A stretch of 64,000 nucleotides of DNA from Flavobacterium xinjiangense (GTDB taxonomy: Bacteria; Bacteroidota; Bacteroidia; Flavobacteriales; Flavobacteriaceae). The stretch spans positions 141,091 to 205,090 of the forward strand of contig NZ_FRCL01000003.1 of assembly GCF_900142885.1 (NCBI RefSeq). The letters are read 5' to 3'. A program made the position numbers and the translations under genes. Every line of letters starts with the position of its first letter. Within the stretch, counting starts at the first letter, position 1. The notes under the pieces are model-generated. The model was given only the letters and a program-made list of their open reading frames with translations, was not told the origin of the DNA and searched no databases. Positions 7,547 to 62,513 of this stretch are shown here, one piece after another.

Positions 7547-7567
7547 AATTCATAATTCATAATTCAT
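7547..7567 (+). repeat. Three tandem AATTCAT heptamers before argF'
   Basis: Perfect copies at 7547-7553, 7554-7560 and 7561-7567 end eight bases before the argF' ATG. A change in copy number would alter the distance between start codon and upstream signals. Confidence 0.85.
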
Positions 7568-7574
7568 AACTATA

Positions 7575-20316: not shown

Positions 20317-20436
20317 ATGAGCAGCTGCAACGGAACCTGCGAAAGCTGTGATTGCAAAGCGATCCCCACTTCCCCTCCTTTGGAGGGGTGCCTAAAGGGC
20401 GGGGTGGTTGAAACAACTTTAAACCCTAAACTTTAA
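20317..20436 (+). CDS. Candidate 39-residue Cys-rich peptide interrupted by a repeat
   Basis: An ATG one base after the stop of the helix-turn-helix gene opens a 39-codon frame whose first 13 residues contain four cysteines in a CNGTCESCDC arrangement, suggesting metal binding. The second half is encoded by the GC-rich intergenic repeat at 20364-20407 and ends only in TAA at 20434. It may be a real small gene whose 3' half has been overwritten by the repeat, or a chance ORF. Confidence 0.35.
   Translation: MSSCNGTCESCDCKAIPTSPPLEGCLKGGVVETTLNPKL
20364..20407. repeat. GC-rich palindromic repeat, copy A
   Basis: CCCCTCC (20372-20378) and GGAGGGG (20382-20388) form a perfect hairpin around TTT, followed by TGCCTAAAGGGCGGGGTGG. 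Related hairpins with the same TTT loop occur at 22643-22655 and 57699-57711. GC content is far above the surroundings. Confidence 0.75.
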
Positions 20437-20445
20437 ATTATTCTT

Positions 20446-59490: not shown

Positions 59491-59554
59491 TTTAAAGTTT
59501 AAGGTTTAAAGTTTCTCAAAAGAACTTTAAACTTTAAACTTTTAAACTTTAAAC
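59491..59554. repeat. AAAGTTT/CTTTAAA inverted microrepeat cluster
   Basis: AAAGTTT-type words at 59491-59514 are inverted as several CTTTAAA words at 59524-59553 around CTCAAAAG. It ends 10 bases before the next start codon, like the other microrepeats of this window. Confidence 0.7.
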
Positions 59555-61776: not shown

Positions 61777-62439
61777 ATGTCGATAGCTCAAAACTTACTT
61801 TCTATAAAAGCCACATTACCGGAGCACGTAACCTTAGTGGCTGTTTCTAAAACCAAACCAATTCCTGACTTGATGGAAGCTTATCAAGCAGGGCAACGCA
61901 TTTTTGGAGAAAACAAAATCCAGGAAATGGCAGAGAAATGGGAACAAATGCCAAAAGACATTCAGTGGCATATGATTGGTCATGTACAGACGAATAAAGT
62001 CAAATTTATGGCACAATTTGTGAGCTTGATTCATGGAGTAGATAGCCTGAAATTACTACAGGAAATCAACAAACAAGCTCAAAAAAACAATAGAGTTATC
62101 GATTGTTTATTGCAAATACATATTGCTGAAGAAGAAACTAAATTTGGTCTTGATGAAGAGGAATTATCTTCTCTCTTATCTTCCAATGAATTTCAGGAGA
62201 TGAAAAACATTAGAATTGTAGGATTGATGGGAATGGCGACTTTTACTGATAACAAAAACCAAATCAAAAAAGAATTCACACACTTGAAATCTATTTTTGA
62301 TGGATTGCACCCACTGAAAACTGTAAACTGTAAACTGAAAACTATTTCTATGGGAATGTCTGGAGATTATAAACTCGCAATTGAATGCGGAAGCACAATG
62401 GTTCGAATAGGAAGTAGTATCTTTGGGGGAAGAAATTAA
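61777..62439 (+). CDS. yggS: YggS family PLP homeostasis protein
   Basis: 220 residues of the PLP-binding TIM-barrel family. The PLP lysine is in VAVSKTKPI (~residue 26), with FGENKIQEM, WHMIGHVQTNKVK, LMGMATF and MGMSGDYKLAIECGSTMVRIG. It buffers pyridoxal phosphate in the cell. Oddly, residues ~179-188 are encoded by four tandem heptamers (ACTGAAA, ACTGTAA twice, ACTGAAA; 62313-62340) in a loop that is shorter in E. coli YggS. Confidence 0.94.
   Translation: MSIAQNLLSIKATLPEHVTLVAVSKTKPIPDLMEAYQAGQRIFGENKIQEMAEKWEQMPKDIQWHMIGHVQTNKVKFMAQFVSLIHGVDSLKLLQEINKQAQKNNRVIDCLLQIHIAEEETKFGLDEEELSSLLSSNEFQEMKNIRIVGLMGMATFTDNKNQIKKEFTHLKSIFDGLHPLKTVNCKLKTISMGMSGDYKLAIECGSTMVRIGSSIFGGRN
62313..62340 (+). 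repeat. Four tandem 7-bp repeats inside yggS
   Basis: ACTGAAA, ACTGTAA, ACTGTAA, ACTGAAA head to tail, followed by ACT. Because the unit is not a multiple of three, gain or loss of one copy would shift the yggS frame before the conserved MGMS motif. Confidence 0.9.
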
Positions 62440-62513
62440 TTTTTAATTTCAGATTAACGATTTTTGATTTCAGATTTTTCACATCCTGAAAACTTAAACA
62501 ATAAATACAAAAT

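Follow-up and report, generated by a model that had tools for sequence, protein, structure and literature searches.

The heptad array of yggS and its counterparts in the genome

The 64,000-nucleotide stretch of Flavobacterium xinjiangense DNA analyzed here (the window) contains a yggS gene whose coding region carries a short tandem repeat. The features considered are as follows.

61777..62439, plus strand: yggS (PLPBP), pyridoxal phosphate homeostasis protein, 220 aa (TIGR00044, PF01168, AlphaFold2 model)
62308..62328, plus strand: codons of the coil, residues 178 to 184, between helix 160-177 and strand 185-193 (AlphaFold2 model)
62313..62343, plus strand: 7-bp array, ACTGAAA ACTGTAA ACTGTAA ACTGAAA ACT
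62347..62370, plus strand: conserved SMGMSGDY, residues 191 to 198, just 3' of the linker (sequence and homologue alignment)
62438..62476, minus strand: second AAYYNNN array, unit AATCNNN, which overlaps the stop codon of yggS and lies in its 3' spacer
7547..7571, plus strand: intergenic AAYYNNN array, for comparison (pattern search)
20415..20439, plus strand: intergenic AAYYNNN array, for comparison (pattern search)

The 220-aa product scored 206.4 bits against the TIGR00044 profile (cutoff, 106.25), which places it in the YggS/PLPBP family (TIGR00044, COG0325), and it also matched PF01168 (Ala_racemase_N). Its AlphaFold2 model (mean pLDDT, 92.2) has a fold like that of Escherichia coli YggS (1w8g; TM score of 0.89 by query length), and the segments AVSKTKP and SMGMSGD are conserved in YggS homologues in a structure alignment of 35 rows. 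The protein is predicted to bind vitamin B6. Between F174 and S191, no column of the 35 aligned homologues is invariant or nearly so; this linker is loosely conserved. In the model, the array codes for residues 179 to 189, i.e., most of the coil and the first residues of strand 185-193.

As the sequence-only reading had stated, 7-bp units lie within the open reading frame (ORF) ahead of the MGMSGDYK motif (ISMGMSGDYK in full). They start at 62313 (ACTGAAA), 62320 (ACTGTAA), 62327 (ACTGTAA), and 62334 (ACTGAAA), and a trailing ACT runs to 62343; in AAYYNNN phase, the array reads CACTGAA AACTGTA AACTGTA AACTGAA AACT. Tandem Repeats Finder reports it with a period of 7, 4.4 copies, 91% matches, and a score of 48. 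Only two adjacent units are identical, and the tract is thus short and imperfect. That reading also proposed insertion into a loop of the protein, with residues added relative to E. coli YggS. The location is right, since the array occupies a loop-like helix-to-strand linker; the added residues are not, since phmmer aligned this linker to 1W8G without gaps, that is, with no gain in length over the E. coli protein.

Could such a repeat be a low-complexity coincidence in an AT-rich genome? At its lowest threshold, Tandem Repeats Finder gives 61 rows in the 64 kb, many of them weak. However, the 42-nt segment before SMGMS has a combined lag-7 and lag-14 score of 38, which was reached by 0 of 1,000 synonymous recodings of its peptide for the window and by 1 of 1,000 for L001, the same gene drawn again. 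Recodings averaged 26, and the maximum elsewhere in the gene was 28. For the array alone, 22 of 26 lag-7 comparisons were identities, a value reached in 0 of 2,000 recodings. Furthermore, the pattern AAYYNNN repeated four times had 53 + 54 matches in the window's genome versus 3 + 5 for the pattern read backwards (107 versus 8). Coincidence is therefore extremely improbable.

These counts agree with the earlier suggestion that the repeat resembles intergenic microrepeats of the genome. The 58 places examined were taken from 100 listed of the 107 matches, plus additional stretches without a match; 48 of them are not wholly inside an ORF of at least 150 aa, and the yggS array is an exception, 10 being wholly inside. 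Seven-base-pair tandem units thus recur at many places of this genome above chance, as expected of dispersed heptanucleotide repeats, a group to which the cyanobacterial STRR belong. AAYYNNN arrays exceeded the reversed control in 41 of 44 genomes; those of L072, L077, and L085 showed no excess, and that of L074 barely did so (2 versus 1). Besides yggS, eight of the nine other intragenic places were tested for periodicity (L170, which repeats that of L169, was left out). The yggS array was the most periodic (22/26), followed by a CobS-like gene (22/32), a glycosyltransferase gene (15/20), and the end of a PyrF-like gene (13/20), with 9 to 12 of 20 lag-7 identities in the rest.

Several further arrays were noted. 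A 25-nt part of the second array at 62438..62476, AATCTGAAATCAAAAATCGTTAATC, recurs exactly at G000:C18:246730, and arrays also lie 3' of yggS in L033, L043, and L057. The CobS-like gene (L139:1060-1887) contains the heptad-like stretch NPKFIIYNPQFII, and the PyrF-like gene (L123:7824-8648) ends in a heptad array that encodes its final residues. Paired arrays on opposite strands close by, minus and then plus, occur at 59491-59554 of the window and at L136:1538-1595, L139:2520-2593, L145:1483-1580, and L146:1557-1625.

Periodicity and reading frame of the linker among homologues

Homologues were sampled unevenly: 30 loci were fetched from the matches that 59 of 60 genomes around the window gave, and the best 80 of 580 named contigs were added. 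A single open frame spans both anchors (GLMGMA and SMGMS, in these or closely similar forms) in 110 of 111 sequences; L024, which escaped the initial anchor pattern and is not counted in the 110, is likewise open and periodic (0.76). L001 is the window's own gene, and L002/L032, L012/L044, L013/L046, L014/L050, and L029/L076 are duplicates, so that the 110 rows, counts over which include six repeated genes, represent 104 distinct, mostly flavobacterial genes. Twenty further homologues were collected, of which 19 were used (four of the window's genus and fifteen of other families), L182 being without the anchor. Separately, a YggS homologue with one in-frame TGA is present in a 1.5-Mb genome (G041:C4:9063-9695), and one split by TAA is present in a 0.3-Mb genome (G051:C1:46863-47491). 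The linker of L022 (G036) is 13 residues longer than usual and not periodic.

Over the 110 rows, the 42 nt before SMGMS had a mean identity of 0.466 at lag 7 and 0.439 at lag 14, with only 0.236 to 0.318 at the remaining lags between 3 and 15. The linker was more periodic than every window in the rest of its own gene in 57 rows, and synonymous recoding reached its score in at most 10 of 1,000 draws in 32. Among 103 distinct 36-nt linkers, identity exceeded that of column-shuffled sequences at lag 7 (0.504 versus 0.390; z, 17), lag 14 (0.485 versus 0.388; z, 13), and lag 21 (0.481 versus 0.376; z, 12), these z values being inflated by relatedness, as some of nine control blocks of yggS, all with lag-7 z values from −4.8 to 1.7, depart from expectation elsewhere (|z| reaching 10.1 at lag 6, 7.5 at lag 8, and 4.1 at lag 14; lag 21 was not run). 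Column composition common to the rows does not explain the linker periodicity. At the protein level, three of five residue pairs seven apart agreed beyond all 1,000 shuffles, and the remaining two were equaled or exceeded by 35 and 279 of 1,000; the agreeing residues were L-L (34), P-P (6), and F-F (3); E, K, S, and Q; and T and I.

Two positions upstream of SMGMS are restricted. Of the 104 genes, 103 have P or a hydrophobic residue at position −4, and 100 have T, I, or V at position −2; among the 19 further homologues, both rules hold in 18, with V, W, and M allowed at −4. N at −7 occurs in 52 of 58 heptad linkers, 20 of 39 nonperiodic linkers, 0 of 7 palindrome linkers, and 3 of the 19 further homologues; the last two counts rule it out as a required residue, and it appears to be a remnant of the array. 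L183 has the sole periodic linker among the 19 (0.80); its register is different, so that it would be an independent case.

Such restrictions raise the possibility that constraint on the protein (a hydrophobic residue at −4, T or I at −2, and often N at −7), combined with AT-rich codons, is what produces the periodicity. Consistent with this, positions −4 and −2 are kept alike in periodic, nonperiodic, palindrome, and outgroup linkers, the synonymous null alone yields 26 of the 38 observed in the window, and recoding reaches the linker score in more than 10 of 1,000 draws in 78 of 110 rows. Nonetheless, column composition accounts for only 0.390 of the lag-7 identity of 0.504, the array's third fixed residue, N at −7, is dispensable, and units are uniform within a linker and different between species. 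We therefore consider this explanation improbable.

Because the unit length is not divisible by three, the sequence-only reading held that gain or loss of a unit would shift the frame and could switch yggS off. The frameshift holds by computation: if one or two units are lost or gained, the protein is cut short at 180 to 187 aa, and if three copies of the first unit are added, a stop arises at 184; with three units fewer, the gene stays in frame (213 aa). The switch itself finds no support. All 111 sequences, from different species, are open through the linker; they were found as proteins, one per species, so that an uncommon or recently disrupted allele would have escaped detection, and they do not amount to a population test. 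Loop length, the comparison proposed for related species, is equal from anchor to anchor in 65 of 104 distinct genes; L026 and L064 are shorter than most rows by 21 nt, or three units, with the frame open, and resemble the computed minus-three-unit form, yet the array itself is gone from them. Simple-sequence contingency loci carry tandem units not divisible by three within a coding region, and the yggS array is like them in this respect; it differs in its short, imperfect tract and in the lack of out-of-frame length variants among the 111 sequences. It is thus very improbable that gain and loss of units turns YggS off and on. Since relatives have other small repeats at the same spot, yggS looks tolerant of repeat DNA in its linker rather than equipped with an on-off switch.

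Unit classes, palindromes, and genomic pools

Linker units vary between species, including AACTGNN, AATTRTC, AACTTCT, AATTCAC, AACTCAA, and AACCNNN. By thresholds set in this analysis, the 104 distinct genes comprise 15 AACTG, 8 AACCNNN, 6 AATTRTC, 5 AACTTGA, 3 AACTTCT, 3 AATTCAC, and 3 AACTCAA linkers, 15 other heptads (some weak), 7 palindromes, and 39 linkers that are not periodic. A linker-free tree was built by a quick method (104 rows, 216 columns), and 50 of its 101 inner branches are open. On it, the distribution of the ten classes requires 53 changes, compared to 60.6 with shuffled labels, so that clustering of classes is present but slight. The named heptad classes together with the palindrome need 25 changes; the palindrome alone needs 6, of which 2 are forced by starred branches.

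Close relatives can carry different classes in this segment. L031, the nearest row to the window and 94% identical to it outside the linker, has a palindrome in its linker, and L015 (array) and L028 (palindrome) are sisters with an SH-aLRT value of 99. In seven hand-picked near pairs of differing class, the upstream coding DNA is 77 to 89% identical and the downstream DNA is 84 to 95% identical, compared to 39 to 60% for the linker; in two hand-picked pairs of like class, the linkers are 71 and 88% identical.

The palindromes in the linkers of 7 of 104 distinct genes are of the GTAG type, and all except that of L028 end in CTAC (GTAG on the other strand). AGACGCN8GCGTCTCTA was found in 16 of the 44 genomes searched, and the reversed control was found in none; the window's genome had no exact match. 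Outside yggS, on both strands, there were 13 matches for L031, 20 for L047, 38 for L055, and 7 for L057, and no other exact copy in the genome of L056; the palindrome is thus multicopy in four of the five palindrome-linker genomes searched (those of L004, whose copy is decayed, and L028 were outside the search). L037 carries another palindrome in its linker, TCCGATAACTATCGGA; TCCGATANNTATCGGA has five sites in that genome, including the linker, and was found in 15 of 44 genomes. Y1_Tnp genes are present in 10 of 12 genomes tested, the window's included. At each of four places fetched for closeness of palindrome and Y1_Tnp (L200 to L203), the palindrome lies inside a transposase-like ORF with the motif MPNHIHLL (MPDHLHII in L202). 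These Y1_Tnp (RAYT-like) ORFs (L200:448-1164, L201:237-785, L202:420-842, and L203:447-1232) contain it in frame, as ETHCCAS- or ETRLIAS-like peptides, and the palindrome thus sits inside its possible mobilizer.

To relate linker units to each genome's own repeats, we counted unit triples in 44 genomes with the linker's own hits removed; because pattern hits overlap, a single long array contributes several matches. All 4 genomes with an AATTRTC linker contained AATTRTC triples, compared to 8 of 40 others (P = 0.004), a count that includes L062, earlier deemed a variant; without L062 it is 3 of 3 versus 9 of 41. AACTTCT triples were present in 3 of 3 versus 9 of 41 (P = 0.017). The match failed for AACTG (1 of 5 versus 18 of 39), AATTCAC (0 of 3 versus 4 of 41), and AACTCAA (0 of 3 versus 18 of 41). 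For AACTG, the five rows of the class were used (the window, L032, L036, L046, and L072); L033, L066, and L068, originally named as well, are classed elsewhere or, in the case of L066, lie outside the 44 genomes. L072 has a near-perfect AACTGCA array in its linker, and its genome is otherwise devoid of AACTGNN triples. Jointly, the five families gave a P value of 0.006 by permutation over 18 linkers, with AACCNNN left out and with a grouping fixed after the AACTG and AATTRTC counts and before the other three, of which one passes. Altogether, two of the five families support import of the unit from the repeats of the same genome, and the other three do not.

The register of the arrays bears on how they arose. 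Among 45 strong arrays of distinct genes, AAYY is in one register in 39 and in a neighboring one in 2, and 4 have too few AAYY (42 of 48 are in the one register with repeated genes counted); in 8 strong arrays, the core is AATT, and the strand is thus ambiguous. A stop-codon filter was rejected as the cause of the fixed register: 95 distinct genomic arrays are open in 36, 30, and 33 cases in the three forward frames and in 26, 26, and 27 in the reverse frames. The fixed register reflects either an old array changing in place or selection for the residues encoded at −4 and −2.

Proposed recurrent overwriting and its alternatives

The single register in 39 of 45 arrays favors in-place change of an old array over fresh random insertion, and it is one point against overwriting of the linker. 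An ancestral heptad array could have been inherited and have changed only by slippage and homogenization, with no import. L072, L077, and L085, which hold arrays in genomes without enrichment, and the 21-nt shortening of L026 and L064 also fit this possibility. On the other hand, length-preserving replacement of all units would be hard to achieve by 7-bp slippage without frameshifted intermediates. Moreover, AATTRTC and AACTTCT linkers sit in genomes rich in those units, and AATTRTC linkers are on scattered branches. We regard change in place alone as rather unlikely.

Our preferred explanation, which we hold to be somewhat probable, is that small repeats repeatedly overwrite or homogenize the YggS linker in Flavobacterium and close allies, subject to filtering by the reading frame. 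The array would be an in-frame microrepeat in a loosely constrained helix-to-strand linker, where AAYYNNN heptads may change unit in concert. The analysis shows the position of the arrays, their periodicity, the diversity of units, the occurrence of palindromes in the corresponding place, and the open frame; from these we infer copying, a direction of change, and a selective filter. The most likely route would be copying from other heptad arrays, with the common AAYY core as the site of template switching or ectopic conversion, and homogenization in place probably acting alongside; in several lineages, a GTAG-type, REP-like palindrome occupies the site that holds the array in others. Selection would keep the frame, the absence of stops, a hydrophobic residue or P at −4, and T, I, or V at −2 before SMGMS, and AAYYNNN in the yggS register may simply happen to encode the required −4 and −2 residues. 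A stronger form appears doubtful: heptad arrays would constitute a dispersed, interconverting family, the YggS linker would receive copies of whichever unit is current, always in one register, and the protein would follow the repeat pool instead of the species tree.

With recurrent overwriting, the linker would be one orthologous coding site where tiny dispersed repeats of two or more classes recur, with the reading frame as the filter. The spreading mechanism of bacterial heptad repeats thereby becomes testable by comparison of closely related strains at one site that aligns readily. It also gives a warning that the YggS linker sequence has little phylogenetic signal. A partial literature search (flavobacterial or Bacteroidetes heptads; yggS with repeats or Flavobacterium) found no paper on YggS linker repeats.

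Tolerance of small repeats inside genes, of both heptad and REP kinds, is already known (PMC4679880, PMC3733652, PMC10969869, and PMC4692102). GTAG-tagged REPs are associated with RAYT transposases, and intragenic REPs have been reported (Di Nocera and others 2013, PMC3733652); no word beginning with Flavobacteri occurs in that text. The yggS palindromes resemble these elements, as described there, in their CTAC ends (six of seven linkers), in being multicopy in some relatives, and in the Y1_Tnp genes of 10 of 12 genomes; a difference is that the window's genome has no exact match to the palindrome. Rickettsia palindromic elements (Ogata 2000, 2002, via the review PMC10969869) are likewise small repeats lying in frame within unrelated genes. 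However, they are insertions of about 150 bp, whereas the linker elements of yggS are 21 to 30 nt and fill or replace an existing linker, which in the window is no longer than that of E. coli.

The closest counterparts are dispersed heptanucleotide repeats. TAACTGA repeats are dispersed in bacteria and mostly intergenic, with occasional copies in ORFs, and intragenic sets are reported to lie mainly at the protein periphery (MacGregor 2015, PMC4679880); GGGAATC repeats (PMC4692102) are another such family. The arrays described here share with them the 7-bp units, the mostly intergenic location, the many places per genome, and the occasional copies in ORFs, and TAACTGA, read as AACTGAT, fits the AAYYNNN pattern of the window's genome. 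Unlike those repeats, the arrays in yggS occupy one orthologous linker of a conserved gene, with different heptad units across the family.
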